Positions 2,898 to 30,177 of a DNA stretch of 30,780 bases are shown here, in pieces. The DNA lies in the IMG/VR virus record IMGVR_UViG_3300050821_014180, positions 1 to 30,780 of that record, one strand, 5' to 3'. A model generated the notes under the pieces. It was not told the origin of the DNA. It saw only the letters and a program-made list of their open reading frames with translations, and ran no database searches. Numbering within the stretch: position 1 is the first letter of the stretch; every line of letters starts with the position of its first letter. The translations under genes were made by a program, and so were the position numbers. Origin of the DNA: a virus.

Positions 2898-4217
2898 ATG
2901 GCCGCACGAGCGGATGAAATCAATCCGGGAGATCACATTGTCGGTGGAGATAACGAATCCGGCATGGGGATGCGCAGGAGGCTATCCAATCCAACCCTCT
3001 CTAATCCATGGGATGACGGCACGCAATCGGGAAACCAAGACGAAGCACCGCTTCGCCGTAACAGCGCCATCTCTGATCCTTCGGACCTAGAAAGCCCAGA
3101 AACCTCCGCGCCGCTCTACAACATCCGGCGCCCGACCCCGCTCGGCCAATTCGCGAAAATCGCCATGCCCATACTGATCGGGGCTGGCATTGGCGCGACC
3201 TCCAATTCCCACCAGCCCGGAGCCGGCTTCCGGAACTCAGAGGATTTCTTCAATACCCTTCGCCGGCAGCAGATGGAGGCAAAGCAAAACCAGATTCTCA
3301 ACGCCGATCGCGTCAGCCAACAGCAAGAGCGCCAAGCCAACGCACGCCGCGCCGATGCCACTGCGAACTACGAAATGAATCGACCTACCTTTACCGAGGG
3401 AACATTGGTGAAGGGCATCGACAGCGAGCCTCAGAGCCCCACTAACGGCAAGCTCGTGTACATGCAGCGTAATCCTAAGACTGGAAAGCTGGAGTCCACC
3501 GGCCAACTCGTGCCGGAGTCGGAAAAGTGGTCTGTCCAAGACACCGATCAAGGCTTGATGCGCGTGAACTTGGAAACGGGCGATGTTAAGCCATTGAGGA
3601 ACCCTTCAACTGCGACAGGACAGCGGCCGGTTTCAGCACTGACCGATGAAGAAGAGCCATTAGAAGGCGAAGAGCGGTCCAATGTCGGAGTGACCGGCGC
3701 TCTTCCTTATATGAGCGAGGGTCCTTCGATCGTAGCAACGGGCCAGTCACCGATGGCCAGGGGAATGGGAGCAGTCGGCGGTGCCGGAAATGTGCTTCAT
3801 CGTCGCGGCAAGGAAGTCGATACCGATCCTAAGCCGCGAGCGGAAGTGGTTACGGACGAAAAAGGCGTGCAGACGACGCAGTACCGCGACATGAATTCCA
3901 GAAGCAAAACCTACGGACAGGTTATCAATGTGCCGCACGAAGCCACGCGTCAACCCAAGCCGAAAAACGTCGTCACGAAACCCAAACCTGAAGACGTCGA
4001 GGCGATGGCCCAGGAAGCCCTGAAGTCCGAAAACGGAGACGCAGACAAGGCTATTGATCGCATTACCAAAGCGCAGATTCCCGATGGCGTGAAGCAGTTT
4101 GTAAGACAGCGGATTCGCGAAATAAAAAGGCCCGGCCAGAAGAAAAGCGTCCTCGACAAGTACGGGATAACTCCCAGCGATCTCGCTACTGCCACCGGCA
4201 AAAATGGCGGACGATAA
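2898..4217 (+). CDS. Disordered phage linker or internal-virion-like protein
   Basis: The protein (439 residues from the ATG at 2898; the frame is open upstream to a TTG at 2766) is mostly low complexity and charged. One short hydrophobic stretch (about residues 86-103, LGQFAKIAMPILIGAGIG) is followed by a Q/R-rich helix. A small folded part (GKLVYMQRNPKTGKLESTG, then SVQDTDQGLMRVNLETGDVKPL) looks like two beta-hairpin repeats. The C-terminus is a K/P-rich tail. There is no clear ribosome binding site, so the start is uncertain. The stop overlaps the start of the giant polyvalent gene by 14 bases, implying coupling. By position and composition it resembles an internal virion protein partner, but no family is recognised. 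Confidence 0.55.
   Translation: MAARADEINPGDHIVGGDNESGMGMRRRLSNPTLSNPWDDGTQSGNQDEAPLRRNSAISDPSDLESPETSAPLYNIRRPTPLGQFAKIAMPILIGAGIGATSNSHQPGAGFRNSEDFFNTLRRQQMEAKQNQILNADRVSQQQERQANARRADATANYEMNRPTFTEGTLVKGIDSEPQSPTNGKLVYMQRNPKTGKLESTGQLVPESEKWSVQDTDQGLMRVNLETGDVKPLRNPSTATGQRPVSALTDEEEPLEGEERSNVGVTGALPYMSEGPSIVATGQSPMARGMGAVGGAGNVLHRRGKEVDTDPKPRAEVVTDEKGVQTTQYRDMNSRSKTYGQVINVPHEATRQPKPKNVVTKPKPEDVEAMAQEALKSENGDADKAIDRITKAQIPDGVKQFVRQRIREIKRPGQKKSVLDKYGITPSDLATATGKNGGR
3676..3691. repeat. Dispersed palindrome, copy 2 (degenerate)
   Basis: GGTCCAATGTCGGAGT within the linker protein gene. It is the same phase as other coding copies and encodes SNVGV. One arm has a T-to-C change. Confidence 0.45.
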
Positions 4218-7200
4218 CGACCTACAGGGGTGGCTCCGAGCCATCCGCAGCGCGGGCCATGGTGGAGGAGGAGCCACCGTCGCAGAGCCTGAAGACGAAG
4301 AACTGTCGCCTTCCGACGAGCGCCAACCATCGCTGAGCGAAATGCTCAGCGCCATCCGCAATGCAAAGTCGGCCGAATCAGAAGCAGAGAAAGCAGCGCG
4401 CGCTCACGTCACGCCCAGCACCACGGCTGGTCCAACATTAGACCAAGCGATATCGCCCGAAACTCCCGCGCGGGTTACCCGCATGGGCGAAGGAGTCGGT
4501 CGGTCGATGATTCCCTTTGAGCCGCCCACCACCGCACCGCCTCCTCCGCATTTGGTGCGCGGACCTTTCGGACAGCCCATACCCCCCGAGCCCGTTGAAG
4601 AAGAATTAGAGGGTGAAGCTTATTCGGAACGCGAGGCGGCTGAGCAGTCGGAAGAAGAAAAGCAGCGCCTGGAAAGGCTCGATCCGCTCTCGCGCATTGT
4701 GGTCGCGTCTACAACGACGCCGAACACGATGCTGGGCCCGCAGATCCCGACCGGACCGCCGACATTCGGCCAGCAAGTTGAGGCCGGCGTGCTGCACGGT
4801 GCCACAGGAATGCGTCCCGACCTTGCCGCAAGGGTCGCGCGGGGCACCGGTGAACGGCCGCTGGCTCTCGAAGCGGCCATCTCGCCATCTGCAACGGGTA
4901 TCGCGCCTGCAATCGAACGCGGCGTACTCAGCGGCGCATCGGGGCTTTTGAGTCCCGATAACCTGGCGCTACTCGCCTCGATGGAAGGCATGGGCGGAGT
5001 CCTTGGGAACCTGGCGCGACAATCGAGCGGATTGTACGAAGCCGCAGAGACGGCGGCGGAAGCGGAAGATTGGGCGAGGTCGGGGGAAGCGCTGGCCAAG
5101 GCCGAAAAGATTGCAGCCCGGGCCAAGCCGCTCGCGGCGATTCATGCAGCCATCAATCCCTACTTCACGTACCAGATGGCGCAGGGGCTTTATGGGGACG
5201 TGAAGGGACTGAAGAAAGCGATCGATCAAGGCGACTGGCAGACCGCCGCTGAACTCCTGGGTGAGGCGATACCGAATGGAATTTTTACTGCGGAAGGCGT
5301 CCGCAATATTTACGCAGGCGTCGCGCGGGTCAGTGCCGGAATCGAGGCGCGGTCAACAGCACGCGAGGCGGCTCGTCGATCACCGGCAACGACGCCTGAA
5401 GCTGAGCCGGTTGAAGCAACGCGCCAGTTGGTCGCTGGCGAGCCAGAAGAAGCGCCTGCAGAATCCGCTGAGACTCCGACGCCCAACGTACCGGAAACGT
5501 CAAGCGCATCGCCAGAGGCGCCCGCAGCGCGAGCCACGGCCCCTGGACAACAAGTCCCGGAACGCGAAGGGACTGAACCTGAGTTCCCGCTCGACCAGTC
5601 GTTAGAGGCAATCCGCAATGCCAAGCGCCCGGGCGAAGCTGTCGAAGAGCCGAAACTACCGGAGCGCAAAACAATTTCGCCCAATGCGCCGCCAGAAGAA
5701 AAGCTCGCCACAGATTTGGAGAATGCGGCCGCAGAAATCCGCGGCGTCCGACGAGAAGAACCATCGCAGGCAGTTGGCGAGGAAGCGGTTGGTGCCTCCA
5801 CTCAAGAAATTCCTGCCGAACTTTTGGACAAAGCGAGAGCGCTTGACGACCGTGAGCGCAATTCAACGATAGCGATTCAACGGCGCTTGCGTGTTGGGTA
5901 CGACATGGCATCGCGCATCAAAGAGCAACTGGCGAACGAGCCTCCGCAAACCGCTGAGGGTCAAGAGGTTACAGAGCCGCACTCCAATGTTGGAGTGACT
6001 GAACCGCAAGTCACTACAACTAAAGGGATTGCGGCGCCGCGGTCTAATGTTGGACTACCTGAACCGCAGCCGATCAATCCTCAAGAAGTCGCGGATCTCG
6101 AACATGAACTCGGGCGACCAGTAAGAGCGGAAGATGTAAACGCTATCCGCCGGCGCCAAGCGGCCGCTGCTAACGTCGAAGCAGGTCTCCGTGGCGAACG
6201 TAGCGACGAGGCGGCGCGGATTCGAGAGCAACACCGCGCCACCCTGCCGTCATTCGCGCCGGGGGATGAAGTTGGCGCACTCGGCGAAGACGCGCGCGCG
6301 AAAGCGGACGAAGTACGTGAAGTTAATCCTGGATTGGCGCAGGTATTCGAAAAACTGGCATCCGGCAAGTACGAGTTCAACGAGCTCAGGGATTACGTCG
6401 ACGAGAATGTCGCCGATCCGTCAACGCACGCTGAACTTTCGGAAGCGGTAGATGGGCTGGAAAGAACTTGGGCCGCCGAACCAGAAGCAGGAGAATCCGC
6501 TCACACAGCTTTAGAGAACGCCCCTCCCGGCGGGTTCACCGAAGCAGATCGTGTTCCTGAACCACCAATCGTAGAATTCCGTCGTCAGGCCAGAGATATT
6601 GCGCGAACGTTGCCTGCAGTGCCTGAGGGCTACACGCGGTTATGGCGTGGCAATCGCGCCGGAGAAGAAGGGCGCAATCCGCAGTTTACAAATGATCTGC
6701 CCGGCATAGCGCTTCCCTTCCAAAAAGCCTACGGAGGCCAGATCACCTATGTAGATGTTCTATCCGAAGACCTCGACAAATATGAGCAGAGCGTCGGTGC
6801 GGCACCGGGTGCGGAGTTTGTCTTGCCGTCTCGACTTGCTAAATCGGCAAAAACTGTTGCGATCGGACCGGTGGGTGTCGGGCTTCCCGAGGAACCTCCC
6901 AGCGCAAACATTGAAAGGCCACGGGGCCAAGCTGCTACAAGTCTGCCGTTCGAACCGCTGGGCCGAGCGGCCGCGTTTGAGTCGCGCATGCCCACGACTC
7001 CGCCCAGCAAGGAACCAGAGAGTGCTACACTCCCAGAAGGAGAGGAACCAACCTATGAGCCCGCAATTGAGTCCTTGGGCGATTCAGGCGAAAGAGCACT
7101 GGAAGAAGTACCGTCCGAAGCTACATCGCGAGCTTCAGGAGAAGGGCCTGCTCGACCAGAGGGCGGAGAAGGCGGCACAGCAGACACAGGACGAATTGGA

Positions 7201-10200
7201 CGAACTCCTGAGCGAGGGAATGAATTACGACCAAGCTTGGGAGTTGGTGAGGGAAAAGTACCTGTTTCTGCCGAGCGAGGAGGACGTGCCGAAACTGGGC
7301 GAGGACAGCGCATCTCCCCCGCTGCAACAGCCGGAAATGACTACCGCATCACGGACGCCGACCAAATCGGAGAAGGTGGCGAGCGCACAAAGTATGCCGA
7401 CAACGTCGCTGCCATCCGAACTCTCAAGCAAATCGAGCTAGACGGGCGACAGGCCACACCGGAAGAGCAATCGAAACTCGTCAAATATGTTGGCTGGGGC
7501 GGTCTCTCGCAAGTTTTCAGCGACCCTTACTCCCGGAAGTGGGGCGACGAATACCAAGAACTCAAAGACCTGCTCACTGACGAGGAATACGAAGCGGCAC
7601 GCGCTTCTACCCCCAATGCTCACTACACTTCCCTTCCAGTCGTTCGCGGAATATGGGATGCGGTTCGCCGTCTCGGTTTCTCCGAGGGGCGTCTTTTGGA
7701 GCCATCCGCAGGCGTTGGCCATTTCCTCGGGCTCATGCCGGATGATTTCCCGGCGCGTCGCACCGCGATCGAACTCGATAACCTAACCGGGCGAATCCTC
7801 AAGCAGCTTTATCAAACCGCCGACGTTCGCATCCAGGGCTTCGAGAAGTTCCGCATTCCCAACGGCTTTTTCGACCTCGCTGTTGGGAACGTTCCCTTCG
7901 GTGATTACAAAGTTCACGATCCCGACTACGCAGCGCATCGGCTGAACATCCACAATTATTTCATTCTAAAAACGCTCGACAAGTTGCGTCCCAACGGCGT
8001 CGCCGCTCTCATCACCAGTTCGTACACACTGGATTCGTCTTCGGACAAGGCGCGAAAGCTCTTTGCTGATCGCGCCGACCTCGTGGGCGCCATTCGCCTG
8101 CCCAATAATGCCTTCAAAGGAAACGCTGGAACTGAAGTCACCACGGACGTCCTGTTTTTCCGAAAGCGTGCCGAGGACGAGAAACCTAGCGGCGAGAAGT
8201 TCCTCGACGTTGGAACGATCAAGGACTCGAAGGGCAAGGAGCTGCCGCTCAACGAGTATTTCATCGCCCATCCCGAAATGATGCTCGGCAAGATGGAGCG
8301 CGCCGGCACGATGTACAGCAGTGGTGAACCGGCGCTGATTCCGCGTCCCGGCCAGGATCTGGCCGCAGAACTCGCGAAAGCAATCGCGAAACTTCCCGAG
8401 AAGATCATGGGAGCAGCGCCCACTCCGGAGGCAGCCACGATTGAGGCCGCTGCCGAAGGGATACCGGAATACGGCGACACGAAGCCCGGTGGACTGAAGA
8501 TCAAAAGCGGCAAGGTCTATCGCCGGGCTGGGGAAACGCTGCAGCTCGAAAGCGGTTTTCCGAAATCAGCCTATCCGCGCCTGAAGGACATGCTACGGCT
8601 GCGCGATGCTGAGCGCGAACTGCTAACCGCAGAATTGAACGATCGGCCAACCAGAGAATTGTCGGACCTGCGCGGACGCCTGAATCGGTTCTACGACGGC
8701 TTCGTTCAAAAGCATGGATATCTGCATAGCCGAGCGAACCTCCGCGCTATGCCGCAGGACCCTGATCTGCCATTTTTGCTGGCGCTCGAGGATTACGATC
8801 CCAAGGAAAAGAAGGCTGCCAAAGCCGACATCTTCACCAAGCGCACGGTAGCGCCACGGAAGCCCGTAGAGCACGTCGAGACGGCCAAAGAGGCCATGCT
8901 GGTCTCGCTCGCCGAGAAGGGGCGCCTCGACTTTGATCACATGGCGCAGATCACCGGGCGAACTCAGGAGGAGTTGCAAGACGATCTGCGCGCCGATGGG
9001 TTGGTCTTCCACAGCCCTGAAGGCCACTGGGAAACCTCAGACAGCTATCTCTCTGGAAACGTGCGGAAGAAGTTGGCTGAAGCGCAATCAGCGGTCGAGG
9101 CCGATCCCGCGTTCAGGGAGAATGTCGAGGCGCTTGAAAGAGTCCAACCCAAAGATTTGACACCAGGAGAAATTGGAGCACGACTCGGTGCCCCATGGGT
9201 TCCCGCGGACGAAGTTGAGGGATTCGTGCGGCACATTCTCGGAGATCCGCACGCCGACGTAACGGTCAGACACGTTGAATCTGAAGGCTTGTGGACGGTC
9301 TCAGCATTTGCTCCCGTCGGGCGCTACGCCGGCGCGCAGCAACGGTGGGGGACCGCGCGGGTGAATCCGGTCGACCTCATTGACCTGGCGCTCAACCAGA
9401 GGGCCCCGGTTATCTACGACAAAGGGCCTGACGACACCCGCGTCATCAACGAATCCGAAACGCTGGCCGCAAAGGAAAAAGCTGAGGAGCTGCACAAAGA
9501 GTTCAAGAATTACCTGCTGCTCGAGCCTGAACGCGGTGCGAGGCTCTCGCGTCTCTACAACGAGCGGATGAACAATTGGCGCAATCGGGAATACGACGGT
9601 TCCCACCTTACCCTGCCAGGCATGTCAGCAGAGATAAAACTGACGCCAATCCAGAAAGGCGACATCTGGCGCGCCATCAGCGGCGGCAACTTGGGCCTTT
9701 ATGAGCCAGTCGGCGCCGGCAAGACGTTCATCATGGCGGCAACAGCGATGGAATGGCGGCGCTTGGGACTCGCCCGCAAGCCGATGATCGTTGTGCCCAA
9801 CCATATGGTCGAGCAGTGGGGTTACGACTTCCGCAGGCTCTATCCCGGTTCGAATGCGCTGATCGCCACTAAGGAAGACTTCTCGGCCGAGAATCGAAAA
9901 GAGTTTTCCTCGCGCATCGCTACTGGCGACTGGGACGCCGTTGTGATGGGTCACAACTCCTTCGGAAAGATCGGCGTGAGCGACGAAACGTTCGATGCCT
10001 TCATGAACGAGCAGGTCGACGCGTTGCACGCCTATCTGGACGAACTACGACAAGCCGAAGGGAAGAAAGGCCAGACCGTCAAAGAGATCGAGAAGTCTCT
10101 GAAACGTCTCGAGGAGCGCATCGCTCGCCGCCACGCTGAGGACCAAAAAGACCGGACGATCACCCTGGAGGATCTTGGTATCGACGGCCTGCTCGTAGAC

Positions 10201-13200
10201 GAAGCGCACGCGTTCAAGAGCCTCTTCTTCCCTACCAAGATGGGCCGCGTGCCGGGAGTGCCGCGGAGCGATTCCAACCGAGCGCTGGACATGCAGCTCA
10301 AGTCCCAGTACATCTCGCGACTGAATAACGGCAAGGGCTTGGTCTTCGCCACGGGCACGCCCATCAGCAACACCATGGCCGAAATGTGGAACATGATGCG
10401 GTACCTCGACGATGGCCGCCTGAGAGAGTTAGGGCTCCAGCACTTCGACGCGTGGGCGGCGCAGTTCGGGGAAATCGTTCAGAACCTCGAAGTTCGTCCA
10501 GAAGACCCAACGAAGATGCGCGTGCACGCGCGCTTCGCCAAGTTCTCCAACCTTCCGGAGCTCATCACGCTGTTCCGTAACACCGGCGCGATGCACTCCC
10601 AGGAAGAACTGAAGCTTCCCAAACCAAAAATGAGCGGCGGGAAGCCCAAGGTCAATGAGATCGAACCCAGCGAGGCTCAGGAGAACTTCATCCAGGAACT
10701 CGGAAAGCGCGCGGAAGCCATTCGCAAACGCGAGGTGTCGCCCGACGAAGACAACATGCTGAAGGTGACCACCGACGGGCGCAAGGCCGCCCTGGACATG
10801 CGCATGGTGGATTCCGGCGCGGCTGACGATCCAGATAGCAAGCTCAACCAGGTTGTTCGAAACGTCGCGCGCATCTACCACGAGCAGAATGAGAAGAAGG
10901 GCACGCAACTTTTGATGCTCGACATGGGCGTTCCCACGAAGACGCCCGGCACGTTCAATGCATATCAGGACATCAAGAACAAACTCGTGGGGCACGGCAT
11001 TCCCGCGGACGAAATCCAGTTCATCCATAGCTTCGAGAAGGACGCTGCGAAACAAGGCCTCTTTGACGACATGAACGATGGGAACGTCCGAATCCTGCTC
11101 GGTTCGACTGAGAAGGTTGGCGTCGGGACCAACATTCAGAAGCGCCTGTTTGCTTTGCATCACGTCGACGCGCCGTGGCGGCCGTCCGATATCGAGCAAC
11201 GTGAGGGACGCATTCTTCGCCAGGGCAATACCAATCCCGAGGTGGAAATCCATCGCTACGTGACCAAGCGCACGTTCGACGCCTACATGTGGCAACTCCT
11301 CCAGAACAAGAACAATTTCATCACCCAGGCCATGCATAACCAGACCGATGCCCGGGAAATTGAGGATGTGGATGGACGCTCACTGAGCTACGCCGAAGCA
11401 AAAGCCTTGGCCACTGGAAACCCGTTGGTGATGGAGAAGATTAGAACTGACCTGGACGTCGCCAAACTTCAGAAACTTGCACACGCCCACGACGTTCAGC
11501 AGTTCAATAATCGCCGCGAGATCGGAGGCTTGCCGACGCGCATTCAGGGACAGAAGGATGCGATTTCGCTTTATAAGCGTGACCAAAAGAGCGCCGCGGA
11601 TCTGCCCGAGCAGTTTGCGATCACGCTGGACGGCAAAGGTTACAGCGACCGCAAAGAAGCCGGCGCGACGCTGAACGAACTCCTGAAGCAGAACGGTGGG
11701 CAAGACACGCCGGTTAGGATCGGTAAATTTGGACCGTTCACGGTTTTCGCAGGGTCCTCCGGCGGGCGGTTGGCGGGAGCGCGTAGCTATGATTTCTCGC
11801 CCAACTACGAGAATCCGTTGGGCACGGTCCAGAGTTTGGAATCCGGGATACGCCGGATTCCTGACTACATCGAAGCGCGCCAACTGAGCCTTGAGAACCT
11901 GGAAAAAGAATTGGCCGAGCGTAAGCAGGAAGCCGATAAGCCCTTCGCTCGCCAGAAAGAACTAAACACGCTGCTCGCAAGGCAACGCGAGATCGACGAT
12001 CAGCTCAAGGTCAAGGATGTGGGCGAAGCGAACGAACCATCTGGTCTTAAAGACGAGGAAGGTGGAGTGCCGCTGAGTTTCTTGGGATTGCAGGGGCTTT
12101 ACGATCAACTCGCACGAGCAATCCGTACCGTGCTGGGCAAAGAGGAAGCACCATCGGAACCTGAGCCTGCGCCAGAGGAAATCTCCGAAACCGGGATACC
12201 GTTTGAAGCACCGTCCCACTCCAATGTTGGAGTTGAGCGCACCACACTCAACCGCGGAGCACGCCCGGGCGAGCGTGCCATCAACATCCGTCTCGATAAG
12301 CTGAATGCGCCCGACGAAGTTCTCGACGAGATCCGCCAAATCGCCAAAGACCGCGCTGCTGAGATTAACGAACAACGCCGCGGCAAGATTTCCAATGCAC
12401 AGCTTCGGGAGATGGCTGCAGAGGTTGGTCTCGACGTCGACAAGATTTCCAAACTCCCTAAGGGGCGTGCGCTGAATCCTGAGGAACTCCTGGCGGCACG
12501 CATGGCCCTGCTATCGCTCGGGGATGAAGTCCGCAAAGCCGCCGCCGCCGCGAGGGAGAGCGATAGCTCTGAGAATCTCTTGCGCCTATGGGAAGCCCAA
12601 CACAAGTTGGCAGCCGTCCAGAAATCCGTGAGTGGGGCAGTAGCGGAAGCCGGCCGGGCCCTTCAGCAACAGAAAATCATCGCTGGGGCTCTGCGCAGTA
12701 GAGATCGATCAAATATCGAACGCGTCCTTGAGCAGCTCGGGGGGCGTGAACTCACGGAAGAGGAGTTGCGGTTGCTTTCGGAAATTCCGGAGGACGACCG
12801 CGCCGGCTACTACAAGTTCCTGCGCAACGCCACGCGATTCGATTCTTACGACAAACTGCGCGCCTATTGGATGGCGAACATCCTCTCCACGCCCCACGCG
12901 TTCGAACGTAAAGCGCTGGGCGATTTGGTGAGCATGGGGATGCAGACCGCCGCACGGTTTGCCCGCGCCGGCGTCGACATCCCTGTCAGCAAACTCCAAG
13001 GGCGCACGCGAGAGTTCTATTTCCGTGACGCAATGGCTGAGACAGCGGCGATGATCCGCGCTCTTCCGGAAGGAGCTCGAAATGCCGCTTACGCAATCGC
13101 CAATGGCTTCTCACCGGAACAGGCAGAAGTGTTGGAAGCTCCGAGACGTTACGAACTGCCGGGTGGGACAAAGAATCCGCTGAACTACCCGGGCAGGATG

Positions 13201-14607
13201 CTCTCGGCAGCCACGACGATGATGAAGACCATGATTTTGCGGGGCTCCATCAAAGGGCAAGCCGTGCGTCAGGCAATAAAAGAGGGCGCCAAGGGGGCAG
13301 CGCTGGCTCAGCGAGCGGCGCAACTAATCGACGATCCGAGCGAAGCAATAATGGCCCAAGCCATGAAAGATGCGGCCATTCAGACTTTCACAGAAAGGCC
13401 GGATGCTCTCGCCAGAATGGCCATTCGACTCCGCGAACTCGCCGTGCCTAAGGATTTTCCTGTGGTAGGCGGAGTGCAACCGTTCGCGTTTGTTATTCCG
13501 TTCATTCAGGTGCCGTGGAACATCGCTAAGACTTCGGTACGGTTCTCGCCATTAGGAGCTGTACGTGCGGCTCGAAGTTCGGCCCGTGGGAAGCCCGAAT
13601 CCTCGAACATCCTCGGACAGGCACTCGTCGGTTCGCTGATCATGGCTGCGCTGGCCGCAGCCGCAGCTGAGGGAAAACTAACCGGAGCGGCACCGAAGAA
13701 TGCCAACGACCGAGACGCGTGGTACTCAGCTGGCAACGAACCGTATAGCATCAAGATCGGTAATCACTGGGTGAACTACCTGCGCGGCACAGGCGCGCTG
13801 GCACTACTCACGGCAGCCGTGGCTGGATTCCATGATTCATTCCGTGAGGACAACAAAGCGCCCACCTCGGAGAAAATTTCACAAGTTGCAGCGCTGCTCG
13901 GCAAAGCCTTCGTCGAACAGTCCTTTTTTCAAGGTATGTCGAACATGCTGAACGCACTCGAGGAGCCGGAGCGCTATGGCGAGAGATTCAGTACCGATAT
14001 CGCCGAGGGCTTCGTGCCGTTCTCAGGTGCTTTGCGCACGGCAGAGCAGGCGCTCGATCCGAAGATCCGCAATCCCCAGGGCATGTACGAGCACATCGCG
14101 TCTGGCATTCCCATCTTGAGCAAAACCGTCCCACCGCGCCTCGATGCCCTAGGCCGTGAGGTAAAGAGCGGTAGTTCTGGACTGGCGGCGCTGGCACCCA
14201 TGCCGATCAGTAAAGCCGCTCCAGAATCGAGCGTCGACACAGAGCTCGCGAGATTGCATGGCGTCGGATTGCGAAACATTGGATTCGCGGCCCGGGCTCT
14301 CACAGTCGGAAACCAGAAGATCGAACTCTCGCGCCCAGAACAAGCCGAGTATCAGCGCATGCGCGGTTCGCTGCTTCGCATGATCCTCGAACGGATGTTT
14401 GCCAGTCATGGTTACCAGGATCTGCAGGACGATCAGAAGGTGGAGGAGGTCCAGGAGGCCACGCGGCAAGCGGAACAATTCGCCCGCGAGCAGATGGTTG
14501 CGAGGGTGGTGAAGCACCGAAATGAAGAGAAGGCTGCGAAATCGACCGGCATCCCTTACGAGCCGCCGAGCCAGTTGAGCATAACCAGCCCGACAGGGTT
14601 GCAGTAG
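4204..14607 (+). CDS. Giant polyvalent protein: FtsK-gamma-like, ART-like, N6-methyltransferase, helicase, C-terminal phage domain
   Basis: 3467 residues. Residues 1-530 are mostly disordered with three AIRNAK/AIRSAG repeats. Residues 539-575 (TIAIQRRLRVGYDMASRI) match the FtsK gamma winged helix. Residues 795-890 (LWRGNRAGEEG, ITYVDVLSEDLDKY) look like an ADP-ribosyltransferase fold. Residues 1080-1300 are an N6-adenine methyltransferase: SAM motif LEPSAGVGHF at 1165-1174 and catalytic NVPF at 1229-1232. Residues 1800-2360 form an SF2/SNF2-type helicase: Walker A GAGKT 1837-1841, DEAH 1999-2002, ATGTP 2049-2053, motif VI QREGRILRQG from 2332. Residues 2700-3430 are helical, with PFIQVPWNIAKTSVRFSPLG near 3099-3118, like LPD38-type phage domains. 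The methylase-helicase pairing is that of P1 DarB-type antirestriction proteins injected with phage DNA. DNA protection after entry is therefore likely, by family. Confidence 0.88.
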   Translation: MADDNDLQGWLRAIRSAGHGGGGATVAEPEDEELSPSDERQPSLSEMLSAIRNAKSAESEAEKAARAHVTPSTTAGPTLDQAISPETPARVTRMGEGVGRSMIPFEPPTTAPPPPHLVRGPFGQPIPPEPVEEELEGEAYSEREAAEQSEEEKQRLERLDPLSRIVVASTTTPNTMLGPQIPTGPPTFGQQVEAGVLHGATGMRPDLAARVARGTGERPLALEAAISPSATGIAPAIERGVLSGASGLLSPDNLALLASMEGMGGVLGNLARQSSGLYEAAETAAEAEDWARSGEALAKAEKIAARAKPLAAIHAAINPYFTYQMAQGLYGDVKGLKKAIDQGDWQTAAELLGEAIPNGIFTAEGVRNIYAGVARVSAGIEARSTAREAARRSPATTPEAEPVEATRQLVAGEPEEAPAESAETPTPNVPETSSASPEAPAARATAPGQQVPEREGTEPEFPLDQSLEAIRNAKRPGEAVEEPKLPERKTISPNAPPEEKLATDLENAAAEIRGVRREEPSQAVGEEAVGASTQEIPAELLDKARALDDRERNSTIAIQRRLRVGYDMASRIKEQLANEPPQTAEGQEVTEPHSNVGVTEPQVTTTKGIAAPRSNVGLPEPQPINPQEVADLEHELGRPVRAEDVNAIRRRQAAAANVEAGLRGERSDEAARIREQHRATLPSFAPGDEVGALGEDARAKADEVREVNPGLAQVFEKLASGKYEFNELRDYVDENVADPSTHAELSEAVDGLERTWAAEPEAGESAHTALENAPPGGFTEADRVPEPPIVEFRRQARDIARTLPAVPEGYTRLWRGNRAGEEGRNPQFTNDLPGIALPFQKAYGGQITYVDVLSEDLDKYEQSVGAAPGAEFVLPSRLAKSAKTVAIGPVGVGLPEEPPSANIERPRGQAATSLPFEPLGRAAAFESRMPTTPPSKEPESATLPEGEEPTYEPAIESLGDSGERALEEVPSEATSRASGEGPARPEGGEGGTADTGRIGRTPERGNELRPSLGVGEGKVPVSAERGGRAETGRGQRISPAATAGNDYRITDADQIGEGGERTKYADNVAAIRTLKQIELDGRQATPEEQSKLVKYVGWGGLSQVFSDPYSRKWGDEYQELKDLLTDEEYEAARASTPNAHYTSLPVVRGIWDAVRRLGFSEGRLLEPSAGVGHFLGLMPDDFPARRTAIELDNLTGRILKQLYQTADVRIQGFEKFRIPNGFFDLAVGNVPFGDYKVHDPDYAAHRLNIHNYFILKTLDKLRPNGVAALITSSYTLDSSSDKARKLFADRADLVGAIRLPNNAFKGNAGTEVTTDVLFFRKRAEDEKPSGEKFLDVGTIKDSKGKELPLNEYFIAHPEMMLGKMERAGTMYSSGEPALIPRPGQDLAAELAKAIAKLPEKIMGAAPTPEAATIEAAAEGIPEYGDTKPGGLKIKSGKVYRRAGETLQLESGFPKSAYPRLKDMLRLRDAERELLTAELNDRPTRELSDLRGRLNRFYDGFVQKHGYLHSRANLRAMPQDPDLPFLLALEDYDPKEKKAAKADIFTKRTVAPRKPVEHVETAKEAMLVSLAEKGRLDFDHMAQITGRTQEELQDDLRADGLVFHSPEGHWETSDSYLSGNVRKKLAEAQSAVEADPAFRENVEALERVQPKDLTPGEIGARLGAPWVPADEVEGFVRHILGDPHADVTVRHVESEGLWTVSAFAPVGRYAGAQQRWGTARVNPVDLIDLALNQRAPVIYDKGPDDTRVINESETLAAKEKAEELHKEFKNYLLLEPERGARLSRLYNERMNNWRNREYDGSHLTLPGMSAEIKLTPIQKGDIWRAISGGNLGLYEPVGAGKTFIMAATAMEWRRLGLARKPMIVVPNHMVEQWGYDFRRLYPGSNALIATKEDFSAENRKEFSSRIATGDWDAVVMGHNSFGKIGVSDETFDAFMNEQVDALHAYLDELRQAEGKKGQTVKEIEKSLKRLEERIARRHAEDQKDRTITLEDLGIDGLLVDEAHAFKSLFFPTKMGRVPGVPRSDSNRALDMQLKSQYISRLNNGKGLVFATGTPISNTMAEMWNMMRYLDDGRLRELGLQHFDAWAAQFGEIVQNLEVRPEDPTKMRVHARFAKFSNLPELITLFRNTGAMHSQEELKLPKPKMSGGKPKVNEIEPSEAQENFIQELGKRAEAIRKREVSPDEDNMLKVTTDGRKAALDMRMVDSGAADDPDSKLNQVVRNVARIYHEQNEKKGTQLLMLDMGVPTKTPGTFNAYQDIKNKLVGHGIPADEIQFIHSFEKDAAKQGLFDDMNDGNVRILLGSTEKVGVGTNIQKRLFALHHVDAPWRPSDIEQREGRILRQGNTNPEVEIHRYVTKRTFDAYMWQLLQNKNNFITQAMHNQTDAREIEDVDGRSLSYAEAKALATGNPLVMEKIRTDLDVAKLQKLAHAHDVQQFNNRREIGGLPTRIQGQKDAISLYKRDQKSAADLPEQFAITLDGKGYSDRKEAGATLNELLKQNGGQDTPVRIGKFGPFTVFAGSSGGRLAGARSYDFSPNYENPLGTVQSLESGIRRIPDYIEARQLSLENLEKELAERKQEADKPFARQKELNTLLARQREIDDQLKVKDVGEANEPSGLKDEEGGVPLSFLGLQGLYDQLARAIRTVLGKEEAPSEPEPAPEEISETGIPFEAPSHSNVGVERTTLNRGARPGERAINIRLDKLNAPDEVLDEIRQIAKDRAAEINEQRRGKISNAQLREMAAEVGLDVDKISKLPKGRALNPEELLAARMALLSLGDEVRKAAAAARESDSSENLLRLWEAQHKLAAVQKSVSGAVAEAGRALQQQKIIAGALRSRDRSNIERVLEQLGGRELTEEELRLLSEIPEDDRAGYYKFLRNATRFDSYDKLRAYWMANILSTPHAFERKALGDLVSMGMQTAARFARAGVDIPVSKLQGRTREFYFRDAMAETAAMIRALPEGARNAAYAIANGFSPEQAEVLEAPRRYELPGGTKNPLNYPGRMLSAATTMMKTMILRGSIKGQAVRQAIKEGAKGAALAQRAAQLIDDPSEAIMAQAMKDAAIQTFTERPDALARMAIRLRELAVPKDFPVVGGVQPFAFVIPFIQVPWNIAKTSVRFSPLGAVRAARSSARGKPESSNILGQALVGSLIMAALAAAAAEGKLTGAAPKNANDRDAWYSAGNEPYSIKIGNHWVNYLRGTGALALLTAAVAGFHDSFREDNKAPTSEKISQVAALLGKAFVEQSFFQGMSNMLNALEEPERYGERFSTDIAEGFVPFSGALRTAEQALDPKIRNPQGMYEHIASGIPILSKTVPPRLDALGREVKSGSSGLAALAPMPISKAAPESSVDTELARLHGVGLRNIGFAARALTVGNQKIELSRPEQAEYQRMRGSLLRMILERMFASHGYQDLQDDQKVEEVQEATRQAEQFAREQMVARVVKHRNEEKAAKSTGIPYEPPSQLSITSPTGLQ
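5980..5997. repeat. Dispersed palindrome, copy 3 (full)
   Basis: CACTCCAATGTTGGAGTG: 8-bp arms with a 2-base centre, encoding HSNVGV inside the polyvalent gene, downstream of the FtsK-gamma-like module. Confidence 0.7.
6041..6056. repeat. Dispersed palindrome, copy 4 (variant)
   Basis: GGTCTAATGTTGGACT, 60 bases after the previous copy (start to start), encoding SNVGL. Its reverse complement nearly matches the copy at 23700. Confidence 0.5.
7055..7441 (+). CDS. Out-of-frame gene nested inside the polyvalent gene
   Basis: A 128-residue frame in +2 relative to the window (the polyvalent gene is in +1). It starts at an ATG preceded by AAGGAGAGG about 10 bases upstream. The first 75 residues look like a real globular helical protein: PWAIQAKEHWKKYRPKLHRE, then a helix with EKAAQQTQDELDELLSEGM, then NYDQAWELVREKYLFLPSEE. 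This pattern, with HWKKYRP and AWELVREKYLFLP, resembles short phage/plasmid helical proteins I have seen annotated as hypothetical; the function is unknown. In the polyvalent frame the same bases give a Gly/Glu/Arg-rich low-complexity linker between the ART-like and methyltransferase parts. It is therefore the small frame, not the large one, that looks ancestral here. Confidence 0.65.
   Translation: MSPQLSPWAIQAKEHWKKYRPKLHRELQEKGLLDQRAEKAAQQTQDELDELLSEGMNYDQAWELVREKYLFLPSEEDVPKLGEDSASPPLQQPEMTTASRTPTKSEKVASAQSMPTTSLPSELSSKSS
12218..12233. repeat. Dispersed palindrome, copy 5
   Basis: ACTCCAATGTTGGAGT within the polyvalent gene, in the linker after the helicase, encoding SNVGV directly after a GIPFEAP motif. 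Confidence 0.7.
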
Positions 14608-16100: not shown

Positions 16101-16546
16101 CAGCCAAAGCTAAGGGGCCAAAAGGGGCCAATACGAAAGCACCGCAGGTGCAGCAAGCCGTCATCTCCCAAAGGCTTCAGGGAGACTCTAAGAGAAAGAT
16201 TGCGCGGGATTTGGACATTGACCGTAAAACCGTGGACCGCATCCTTTCCGAAAGCCAGATCGAGGAGGCAGTGGCCCAAGGCCGGAGTCGGCTCGTTGAA
16301 CTTGTACCGAAGGCCCTTCAGGTGATCGAAGCAGCTCTTGAGCAGGGGCTTCAGGCCGACGGAGTACCCAGGAACGCACTGGAAGCCGCCATCAACGTTG
16401 TGAAAGGTTCGGGTACGTATGAGGAACGGAGCCGCACGCGCGGGGATGTCTATGTCCACGATGAATACGCCAAGGCCGACCGAGGCGAGCTTGAATCCCA
16501 ACTCCGGGAACGACTGCAAGCCATCGGATCGAGCCGCCCTAATTGA
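16097..16546 (+). CDS. Terminase small subunit (probable)
   Basis: 149 residues. The N-terminal helix-turn-helix (QQAVISQRLQGDSKRKIARD, then LDIDRKTVDRIL, about residues 20-55) fits the DNA-binding domain of small terminase subunits or Hin-like resolvases. It is followed by a helical oligomerisation-like region (LVPKALQVIEAALEQGL). Small terminases recognise packaging sites on phage DNA and regulate the large subunit. The call rests mainly on its place directly before the terminase ATPase gene, which it overlaps by about 128 bases if the ATG at 16419 is used. It begins in an ATGA overlap with the gene before. A general regulator is the alternative. Confidence 0.65.
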   Translation: MTAKAKGPKGANTKAPQVQQAVISQRLQGDSKRKIARDLDIDRKTVDRILSESQIEEAVAQGRSRLVELVPKALQVIEAALEQGLQADGVPRNALEAAINVVKGSGTYEERSRTRGDVYVHDEYAKADRGELESQLRERLQAIGSSRPN

Positions 16547-17183
16547 TGCACTCCGAATAGCAGACGAGCTTGAGCGACGCCACTGTTCTGAGGACCCGGA
16601 ATATTGGCTGTTCAAGTACGCCCGCACGCGAGACGAGCACGATCCCGATGTTGCCGCGAAGCCGTTCCCCGATAAGAAATACCTGCGCGAAATCGTACGG
16701 TTCTTTCTGAAGCACCGCATGAACCTCTACGAGAAATCCCGGCAGATGATGGTCACCTGGACCCTCTGCGCGCTCTACACACACGACGCGCAGTTCCACA
16801 CCAACCGGCTGCACTTCATTCAATCGAAGAAGGAGGAGGACTCGGATCGGCTGATCCAGCGCTGCTTAACCATTTACGAAAACCAGCCGGCATTTCTGAG
16901 AAACGCGCATCGGGCAGAATATTCGTACTGCCATCTCCGTTTCTTCCGGTCCGGCAACAAAGCGCTCCCGTATTCCGAAATCTGGGGCATCCCTCAAGGC
17001 GGCGATGTGATTCGCCAGCACACTGGTTCCGGTCTGTTCATTGACGAAGGCGGGTTCCAAGTTGACTTGGAGGCCTCGGTGGGTGCTGCTCAGCCGATGC
17101 TGAAAGGCGGCGGCCGGTTGGACATCGTCAGTTCGGCTGAGCCTGGCTACTTCGAAGAGCTTGTTGAGGACCGCGTGAAATGA
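16419..17183 (+). CDS. Terminase large subunit, ATPase half
   Basis: 254 residues. The ATPase motor of phage packaging: terminase-type Walker A region KSRQMMVTW (106-114) and Walker B LFIDE (206-210), with an upstream adenine-site-like segment FLKHRMNLYE. The HFIQSKKEEDSDRL helix and the IVSSAEPGYF coupling motif also match TerL. The protein stops at residue 254, where a normal TerL of about 500-550 residues would continue into its nuclease; that part is in the next gene, overlapping by ATGA. The start is uncertain because several in-frame ATGs (16419, 16446, 16452, 16461) lie inside the TerS gene and none has a strong ribosome binding site. Confidence 0.85.
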   Translation: MRNGAARAGMSMSTMNTPRPTEASLNPNSGNDCKPSDRAALIDALRIADELERRHCSEDPEYWLFKYARTRDEHDPDVAAKPFPDKKYLREIVRFFLKHRMNLYEKSRQMMVTWTLCALYTHDAQFHTNRLHFIQSKKEEDSDRLIQRCLTIYENQPAFLRNAHRAEYSYCHLRFFRSGNKALPYSEIWGIPQGGDVIRQHTGSGLFIDEGGFQVDLEASVGAAQPMLKGGGRLDIVSSAEPGYFEELVEDRVK

Positions 17184-28226: not shown

Positions 28227-28432
28227 TGGCGAAGACTTCAAAACTCGCGACCATGCCGGGTCCGGCGATCGAGCCGGAGTTGAAGGAATTTATCGACAAG
28301 TGTCTCGTCCCGATTTTGGTCCGGGAAGCGCTTACAGAACTTCAGCAAGAGAATCACGTTGCACCAGATGTGAAGCCCGTAGCACAATCCTGCCGGCAGA
28401 TCCTTCCGGCCACAGCCGAGGTAGCCGAATGA
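28226..28432 (+). CDS. Small protein directly before the serine recombinase
   Basis: 68 residues with overlapping junctions on both sides (TAATG at the start, ATGA at the end). It contains a helical segment (EPELKEFIDKCLVPILVREA, LTELQQENH) and a short variable C-terminus. No family is recognised. Small proteins co-translated with large serine recombinases can be directionality factors, so this is a candidate, by position only. Confidence 0.6.
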   Translation: MAKTSKLATMPGPAIEPELKEFIDKCLVPILVREALTELQQENHVAPDVKPVAQSCRQILPATAEVAE

Positions 28433-30177
28433 GCCAACTCCGCTGCGCCGCTTACAGCCGCGTCAGCAGTGATAGGCAGAACCCACTCTCAATTGATGAT
28501 CAGATTCGAAAATGCAAAGAGTTTGCCGGACACGAGAGATGGCGTGTACTCGAGGAGCACATCTACTCCGATGAAGCAATCTCTGGGACGACCGATGACC
28601 GCCCGGGCCTTCAGCGACTTCTTGCTGCGCTGAAGCAGCGACCCTGCCCCTTTGATGTTCTGCTCGTAGATGACACAAGCCGTCTTTCCCGAAATGCCAA
28701 GGACACGCTCACTATCTACGAGAAGTTGACCTTTGCCGGCGTGCGCCTAGTCGCGATCAGCCAGGGAATCGACTCCCAGAATGAGCAAGCCGGTGTGTTG
28801 ATGCAGGTTCATGGCATCGTCGATAGCGTTTACGTGAAAGAGCTGGCCACGAAAACGCGCCGCGGCATGGAGGGCGCGTTCTTGCGGGGCAATCACACAG
28901 GAGGACGTTGCTTCGGATATCGGAATGTTCCGATCGAGGATTCGACGCGCACCGATGAGCATGGGCGCCCAGTGATTCTCGGTGTACGGCTCGAAGTGAA
29001 CGAAGCCCAGGCCGCTGTAGTTCGCCGGATATTTGAACTCTATGCCGGCGGATCTAGCCTGAAGCGGATCACGAAGCTGCTCAACTCTGAAGGCGTGGCC
29101 TCACCACAGCCGCAAGCTGGAAGAATTTCCCGCTCCTGGTGCCCTTCGTCGTTGCGGGTGATCCTCCACAATGACCGATACCGTGGGCTAGTAATTTGGA
29201 ATAAAACCAAAAAGGTTCGGGATACTGAGAGCGGCCGAAAGCTTGCTCGGGCACGCGCGCAGAAGGAATGGGTAATGCAAGACGTTCCCGAGCAACGCAT
29301 CATCGCGGACGAGCTCTGGAATGCCGTGCAGGTGCGCCAGGAGCTTGTGAAGCGCGTCTATGAAGCGGCCGGCAAGCGTGCGGGGTTGCTCCGATCCTCG
29401 GCGATGAACGTGCCGTATCTGTTTTCGGGACTCCTCAGATGCAAGGTCTGCGGTGCCAACCTGCAGATCGTTTCGGGTCGTGGTCGGAACCATCAGTCGC
29501 AAACCTACGGTTGCCCCATGAACTTTCACCGCGGCGATTCCGTGTGTTCAAATCGCGTGAGGGTGCGCCGTGACGTTCTCGAGCGCGAACTTCTCCAGGG
29601 TCTTCAGTCCAAAGTTCTTCGCGAGGAGGTCATCGACTACGTATTGGACCAGTTCGAAAAGCAGCTCGTCAGGGAAATCGACGGCATCAGCGGAGAAATG
29701 GACCGCATGAAAAAGCGGAAAGTAGAGTTGCAATCGGAGATCAGGAGGCTCACCGCCGGGCTCGCAACCGGATTCCATTCGCCGGCGGTTATGGCCGAAA
29801 TCACGAAACGCGAGCAAGAGATTTCGGATATCTCCGACCGCCTGCTCTCTTCGAAACCCGAATCCGTACGGTCGAGGATCGCTGCGCTGAAACAGAACGT
29901 CGCGAAACGAACGCATGACCTGCGCCAGTGCTTGAACAATGACCCTATAACGGCGCGTGCCTACCTTACCAAGCACGTCGAGAAGATCGAGATGGACCCG
30001 GAGGGCGGAATCTACGTAGCCTCCGGAAGTTGGAATTTGCTGGGCAGCGATACGCTGGGTGCAGAACGGACGTTGGGAATGTGCCGGGGGGCAGAGTTGA
30101 ACTGCCTACGCCGGCCTTTTCAGGGCCGCGCTCTACCGGTGAGCTACCCCGGCACCGGAGGAATCCAAAAATTGTAG
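28429..30177 (+). CDS. Large serine recombinase (element integrase)
   Basis: 582 residues from the ATG at 28429 (ATGA overlap with the small upstream gene). The resolvase domain has YSRVSSDRQ with nucleophile Ser13, SDEAISGTTDDRPGLQRLL and LVDDTSRLSRN. The recombinase domain spans about 180-300. The zinc ribbon starts with CKVC at 338-341 and pairs with CPMNFHRGDSVC. A coiled coil follows (VLDQFEKQLVREIDGISGEM, DRMKKRKVELQSEI), the usual integration-control region. The last 30 residues (from MCRGAELN) are read from the tRNA-Phe gene, so they belong to the host side of the junction; the excised form would end differently (MCRGTELHPT onward). It probably catalyses insertion at tRNA-Phe. Confidence 0.9.
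   Translation: MSQLRCAAYSRVSSDRQNPLSIDDQIRKCKEFAGHERWRVLEEHIYSDEAISGTTDDRPGLQRLLAALKQRPCPFDVLLVDDTSRLSRNAKDTLTIYEKLTFAGVRLVAISQGIDSQNEQAGVLMQVHGIVDSVYVKELATKTRRGMEGAFLRGNHTGGRCFGYRNVPIEDSTRTDEHGRPVILGVRLEVNEAQAAVVRRIFELYAGGSSLKRITKLLNSEGVASPQPQAGRISRSWCPSSLRVILHNDRYRGLVIWNKTKKVRDTESGRKLARARAQKEWVMQDVPEQRIIADELWNAVQVRQELVKRVYEAAGKRAGLLRSSAMNVPYLFSGLLRCKVCGANLQIVSGRGRNHQSQTYGCPMNFHRGDSVCSNRVRVRRDVLERELLQGLQSKVLREEVIDYVLDQFEKQLVREIDGISGEMDRMKKRKVELQSEIRRLTAGLATGFHSPAVMAEITKREQEISDISDRLLSSKPESVRSRIAALKQNVAKRTHDLRQCLNNDPITARAYLTKHVEKIEMDPEGGIYVASGSWNLLGSDTLGAERTLGMCRGAELNCLRRPFQGRALPVSYPGTGGIQKL
30081..30090. repeat. Right attachment core (attR) at tRNA 3' end
   Basis: GTGCCGGGGG, same as 561-570. 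It covers the 3' strand of the tRNA-Phe acceptor stem (30083-30089), the discriminator base and one base beyond. Confidence 0.65.
30082..30153 (-). tRNA. tRNA-Phe(GAA)
   Basis: On the minus strand a full cloverleaf of 72 bases: acceptor GCCGGGG/CCCCGGC, D-arm GCTC/GAGC, anticodon stem CGGCC/GGCCG with loop CTGAAAA (anticodon GAA), T-arm GGCAG-TTCAACT-CTGCC and discriminator A. The gene no longer encodes CCA (next bases are CAT); the displaced left copy does. The last part of the serine recombinase reading frame overlaps it on the other strand. Confidence 0.95.

Follow-up and report, generated by a model that had tools for sequence, protein, structure and literature searches.

A small, probably TnpV-like gene nested out of frame within the DarB-like polyvalent genes of phages and other mobile elements

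DarB-like polyvalent proteins that combine LPD36, a methylase and an SNF2 helicase have been described before (PMC5512222), and a term search of the text of that paper finds no mention of an overlapping gene. The DarB protein of phage P1 is a virion protein that works together with small Dar proteins, and the P1 Dar proteins, Ulx included, are packaged and co-ejected (PMC12810830). A DarB homologue has also been found in the virions of phage JC1, a result which concerns DarB alone (PMC9144972). Here we describe the IMG/VR virus record IMGVR_UViG_3300050821_014180, a window of 30,780 bases, in which a polyvalent gene of the same kind encloses a small gene in another frame of the same strand. 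We consider it very probable that this is a true gene, that its product belongs to a TnpV-like superfamily and that it is expressed by internal initiation. The anatomy of the locus, its conservation, the selection on the small frame, the initiation signals and the homologues standing alone are documented below.

Genes hidden within other genes of mobile elements are already known. The HNH endonuclease genes of the phages ShiLan and Pacc40 also lie out of frame in a phage methylase gene, and there, too, the host frame is free of stops and without a recognisable domain (PMC11855218). However, these are homing endonuclease genes with a patchy occurrence among close relatives, whereas the gene described here encodes a helical protein without HNH domain, has a fixed place and frame and is preceded by a strong Shine-Dalgarno (SD) site. 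Likewise, ardD is an anti-restriction gene hidden in a gene of a mobile element, tniA of Tn5053 (PMC3533173), but it is antisense, it has another host gene and its activity has been shown experimentally. New in the present case are the place and the frame, which are fixed across phyla. Our searches of the open-licence literature, in which several papers on TnpV were consulted, turned up no account of a small gene within darB, nor of a TnpV gene within another gene.

The nested open reading frame (ORF) lies wholly within the darB gene on the same strand, and both frames are open; since (7055-4204) mod 3 = 1, its relative frame is +1. A preliminary description of the window had proposed an ORF of 128 residues at 7055-7441 with an SD site and an ATG of its own inside the polyvalent gene, and it exists exactly so. 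The small frame is open upstream back to 6755. The relevant features, with the basis of each in brackets, are:

4204..14607, plus strand: DarB-like polyvalent gene of 3,467 codons (ORF and PHROG matches)
7037..7045, plus strand: SD site AAGGAGAGG of the nested gene (sequence; hybridisation energy -8.4)
7054..7335, plus strand: darB-frame linker over the nested core, rich in Gly, Ala, Glu, Arg and Ser, stop-free and otherwise unconstrained
7055..7441, plus strand: nested small gene of 128 amino acids with ATG start (ORF and frame; homologues and selection)
7073..7264, plus strand: predicted folded helical core of the nested protein, residues 7-70 (AlphaFold2 model)
7336..7441, plus strand: zone in which the conserved start of LPD36 in the darB frame lies over the predicted-disordered C-terminal tail of the nested protein, residues ~95-128 (LPD36 coordinates; low model confidence of the tail)

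A foldable helical core had been supposed for the small protein, and the AlphaFold2 model, built with 50 homologues, bears this out: it predicts helices at residues 7-19, 21-30, 33-53 and 58-70, with values of the predicted local distance difference test of 94-97 over residues 7-70, followed by a tail that is predicted to be disordered. The core overlies the darB linker, and the tail (from residue ~95) overlies the start of LPD36. The giant frame is indeed of low complexity across 7055-7441 (SEATSRASGEGPARPEGGEGGTADTGRIG), as had been claimed, and over the small gene it is an unconstrained linker. The ordered part of DarB was also correctly expected to follow this linker, but LPD36 ('NDYRITDAD') starts at nucleotide 7336, slightly earlier than the proposed position near 7370. 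We found no solved structural relative of the nested protein, and Pfam, NCBIfam and PDB suggest no function for it. Neither the window protein nor the list of Pfam families for 43 relatives contains a match to an HNH domain, as would be expected of a hidden homing endonuclease of the ShiLan type.

The preliminary description would have given up the gene had its product no homologues, but these exist. A tblastn search of phage records matched 20 records, which represent 10 distinct phages of Vibrio, Agrobacterium, Erwinia, Pseudomonas, Klebsiella, Sinorhizobium and Ochrobactrum, and every match lies within a DarB-like gene. The relative frame is +1 in all eight phages that have an annotated and correctly oriented DarB coding sequence; the other two are Itty13, whose annotation is on the wrong strand but whose frames are open in the same way, and the frameshifted PBC5. 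A search of viral contigs with the window protein as single sequence gave no match and a plasmid search with its core was empty; a profile built from 11 phage homologues was needed to find the wider set of 68 viral and 20 genomic loci. With the window included, 91 of 99 loci have the small gene nested at this relative frame within an open darB, and these 91 represent 74 distinct cores (the remaining eight loci are PBC5, counted twice, and six copies without an open darB). To either side of the nested genes, hundreds to thousands of codons of the darB frame are open, except where a contig stops. When we searched with the methylase part instead, 54 of 80 DarB-like loci carried the small-gene profile, always at +1, a proportion that is not to be read as a prevalence, because the query came from carriers. 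In most of the remaining DarB-like loci this place is taken by another small ORF, likewise at +1 and preceded by an SD site, which encodes a TnpV-like protein in gut-phage contigs or else belongs to a third family. The arrangement is ancient, common to several phyla and not special to this locus.

The pattern of substitutions reveals which of the two frames is under selection. When nested copies are compared as 27 disjoint pairs, the small frame has 259, 224 and 449 substitutions at positions 1, 2 and 3 (p 9e-21); a few hundred bases further downstream, the darB core exhibits the ordinary darB pattern in its own positions (796/572/2444). Third codon positions in the small gene are first positions in darB, so that the small protein constrains the overlap, whereas darB is free to vary there as long as no stop arises. 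The same excess at third positions is seen in the other nested families (60/55/129, 49/30/82 and 106/70/144). Protein identity is likewise higher for the small frame than for the darB frame in each distance class, with 0.93 against 0.83, 0.82 against 0.66 and 0.66 against 0.46. Conservation of the linker among polyvalent proteins had been named as an argument against the gene, but the resemblance of the linkers is a by-product of the small gene, because the small frame is better conserved at every distance.

The initiation signals are conserved as well. The nested gene starts with ATG in 69 of 74 copies and with GTG in the other five, and an SD motif precedes 73 of the 74 starts as compared to 15% of control out-of-frame ATGs (difference of SD energies, p 9e-42). 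Not a single darB-frame stop occurs over the small gene in the 74 copies, whereas ~1.5 per copy would be expected from the small protein, and this number is if anything underestimated, since the pooled codon usage comes mostly from nested copies. In contrast, among the six copies where darB is not open, five hold 1-7 stops in the darB frame. Codon preference, measured with the non-overlapping part of the same darB gene, amounts per codon to 0.153 for the small frame, -0.392 for the darB frame and -0.290 for the third frame, as compared to 0.262 for ordinary darB in its own frame; the small frame outscores the darB frame in 67 of 70 cases. By codon preference, it is the small frame that is older or dominant.

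Two alternatives concern the reality of the gene and the way in which it is expressed. The small frame might be nothing but a shadow of darB coding in GC-rich, repetitive linkers. Synonymous shuffling of darB left the window's small frame open in 12% of trials and that of other copies in about half, and because of those 12% the length of the ORF alone is unconvincing as proof of a gene. However, a shadow should show the opposite polarity to the one observed, in which the small protein is the better conserved one; the third-position excess, the SD sites and the stops in the darB frame of standalone homologues speak against it as well. The chance of a mere shadow is negligible in our view, and the substitution pattern already refutes it. 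Alternatively, the small product could be fused to the N-terminal part of DarB by ribosomal frameshifting, as one might think from Sinorhizobium phage PBC5 (NC_003324.1), in which the upstream half of darB runs on into the small frame without a break. Just upstream, though, PBC5 has indels that set it apart from its relatives, which points to one frameshifted genome or a sequencing error. Moreover, starts and SD sites are conserved, and 14 of the 74 nested copies have at most five open small-frame codons before the start, which leaves almost no room for a frameshift and makes internal initiation the simplest route. We reject the frameshift fusion on these grounds as highly improbable. As a side observation, phrog_938 ('endolysin', 2,185 positions) has the small protein at its C-terminus, apparently taken from the PBC5 record.

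The family to which the nested protein might belong is suggested by profile comparisons. TnpV (PF14198), an uncharacterised family carried in transposons and integrative mobilizable elements (PMC3158075, PMC9815147), resembles the window protein in size, in the predicted order of the helices of the core and in a conserved tyrosine/tryptophan-proline-leucine-glycine motif region, but it has been described as a standalone gene, and the window protein falls below the Pfam threshold. In hhalign, the window family matches a nested family of gut phages with 97% probability (E 2e-11), and this gut-phage family in turn matches TnpV with 90% (E 2e-6). Among the relatives, 30 of 43 match the TnpV model at E<=1 (best 3.6e-5), and two that were scored singly are both below the 27-bit cut-off. 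The predicted helices of one TnpV (locus L126) follow in the same order as in the window protein and agree in length (13, 10 and 21-27 residues, then the last helix); the Foldseek link is weak. Judged by these sequence comparisons, the family is filed as a putative TnpV-like superfamily and not as a member of TnpV.

TnpV itself can be nested in the same manner. Bona fide TnpV (E ~1e-43) lies at +1 in Bacillota-type DarB-like genes, for instance at 4418-4777 inside a DarB-like frame at 3568-12597 (L201), and is also nested in plasmid records of Subdoligranulum, Cohnella and Monoglobus. In one record (G320), TnpV is present twice, once within a DarB-like frame and once as a standalone gene (loci L208 and L203). 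The slot in front of the darB methylase is taken, again at +1, by a third nested family (ATEIANRWMLGWPKRV...HEIAELYGLS) at the loci L160, L163, L167, L168, L172, L176-L179 and L191-L193; Pseudomonas phage 8P and plasmids of Acidovorax and Cupriavidus share this family. It is apparently unrelated to the window family, with an hhalign probability of 2%.

Several points weigh against a TnpV-like gene that is translated from within darB. The direct profile comparison of the window family with TnpV is weak (44%), and the window protein has no match to the Pfam TnpV model at E<=1. TnpV also occurs in elements without an adjacent darB, which makes a strictly DarB-specific role doubtful. A minority of DarB-like genes, that of P1 included, is without a nested gene, and we found no unfused ancestor. 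Finally, translation of the nested gene is something that we infer.

Taken as a mechanism, a small four-helix, TnpV-like protein would be made by internal initiation at its own SD site on the darB mRNA. The darB frame over the small gene would be the younger one, a disordered linker without stops, by which the variable N-terminal domains are connected to the methylase-helicase core. Both proteins would share the DNA by partition, the small protein being folded where DarB is a linker and DarB being ordered where the small protein is a tail. This ancient arrangement, always at +1, has been kept in the DarB-like genes of phages, some plasmids and Bacillota elements.

Two routes to the overlap are conceivable. 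A second frame might have been opened through an old TnpV-like gene, which joined upstream domains to the methylase-helicase, or the small gene might have been inserted there. The preliminary description had proposed a fusion of three genes by readthrough of a second frame; the codon preference fits a reading through an existing gene, but no locus with three separate genes was found. The search for an unfused arrangement was in vain: two plasmid candidates proved to be nested as well, and so did a locus with a short darB N-terminus (L129). P1 DarB begins directly at the methylase part, with neither linker nor nested gene. Given the small protein, ~1.4 stops have to be cleared in the darB frame and ~5.1 in the third frame, a difference that would make +1 the preferred relation in any case of readthrough. 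The alternative that the small gene was inserted, as a cassette, into a darB linker that already existed differs from this only in the route, is compatible with everything else and is fitted by the codon preference just as well. Out-of-frame insertions into phage methylases are described, namely the ShiLan hidden HNH endonucleases (PMC11855218), and TnpV is mobile with its transposons and integrative mobilizable elements. However, one single relative frame and a near-constant place before the methylase across phyla look inherited and not like repeated insertion. We regard insertion as an equally possible route, even if somewhat short of probable in itself.

The function of the nested protein can be approached by analogy. 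It may be a small partner of the methylase-helicase or an anti-restriction factor delivered together with it; we favour such a role, albeit only tentatively, because Ulx of P1 is encoded beside darB and packaged and a DarB homologue is present in JC1 virions. Ulx, whose gene adjoins darB directly downstream, is comparable as a small Dar-system protein that is encoded beside darB and packaged with it (PMC12810830). In contrast to the nested gene, ulx stands apart from darB as a gene of its own; nothing is nested in the darB of P1, and Ulx is not matched by the profile of the small protein. The main rival to the partner role is an accessory function in recombination, similar to that of an excisionase, in which case the place within darB would be only genomic economy. 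TnpV of Tn4451 was postulated to act in excision on account of its likeness to lambda Xis (PMC3158075), TnpV directly follows a recombinase gene in a Campylobacter plasmid, and the window has a serine-integrase gene at 28300-30177. Yet the excision role is only a postulate in that study, in the phages examined it is darB and not a recombinase with which the gene stays, restriction genes adjoin two of the standalone copies, and the protein is modelled as a helical bundle in a family with negative net charge (median -6). We consider a recombination accessory rather unlikely.

With all due reserve, giant conflict proteins as a class might carry an inherited hidden companion gene, TnpV-like or of a second type, in the linker before the methylase-helicase. 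The companion would be co-translated with the giant protein, which would depend on it for packaging, restraint or anti-restriction, and the disordered linkers of such proteins would be second readings of an older gene. Long, conserved dual coding on the same strand with clean evidence of selection across phyla is rare in prokaryotic elements, and here it is fixed within one of the largest phage proteins. The nested gene accounts for the odd Gly/Arg/Glu-rich linkers of polyvalent proteins, and TnpV gains anti-restriction as a new setting that can be tested.

Standalone copies of the small gene are present in Corticibacter, Variovorax, Pseudidiomarina and metagenome-assembled genomes of Hyphomicrobiales and Marinimicrobia, with no darB remnant in the flanks examined; such a remnant was found only at locus L027. 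As read from translations without family search, the Variovorax copy adjoins hsdM and the Pseudidiomarina copy adjoins restriction-like and McrB-like genes. On the tree, which is based on few columns, standalone copies are scattered singly among nested ones, which suggests that they might be escapes with a function of their own. The Pseudidiomarina copy (L099, 5974-6762) is fused to a predicted membrane region and is a possible use of the domain in a defence island.

The overlap also gives rise to a systematic annotation fault, since gene callers pick one frame and thus either miss the small gene or trim the start of the giant gene. The small gene is almost always overlooked: it is annotated in no phage record that the window family matches, and in phage Itty13 (NC_070969.1) three hypothetical proteins on the wrong strand stand in place of the darB region. 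The annotations of Acidovorax pACP4.3 and of the Cupriavidus plasmid keep the small ORF (WP_162290891.1, WP_158664432.1) and start the N-6 methylase hundreds of codons late. These two plasmids could be mistaken for an unfused state, which we reject, as the methylase start is trimmed in the annotation and the small gene is nested. The annotated plasmid cases are:

L192 7604-15826; L191 from ~1323: Acidovorax pACP4.3 and Cupriavidus plasmid

The enclosing gene consists of a variable N-terminal part, the disordered linker, the LPD36-methylase-SNF2 helicase core and a C-terminal part resembling an internal virion protein. It matches phrog_10089 ('DarB-like antirestriction') over amino acids 942-2613 (E=0), phrog_62 (helicase) and phrog_6651 (internal virion protein, amino acids 2993-3424). 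The Pfam matches to Eco57I, SNF2 and Helicase_C are all weak and sub-threshold, and the methylase-SNF2 core agrees with the DarB families. Elsewhere in the window, the large serine-integrase gene mentioned above (phrog_95, E 2e-92) and a terminase-like short ORF at 16419-17183 (phrog_5989, E 1e-10) were identified, and the element is therefore probably a temperate phage.

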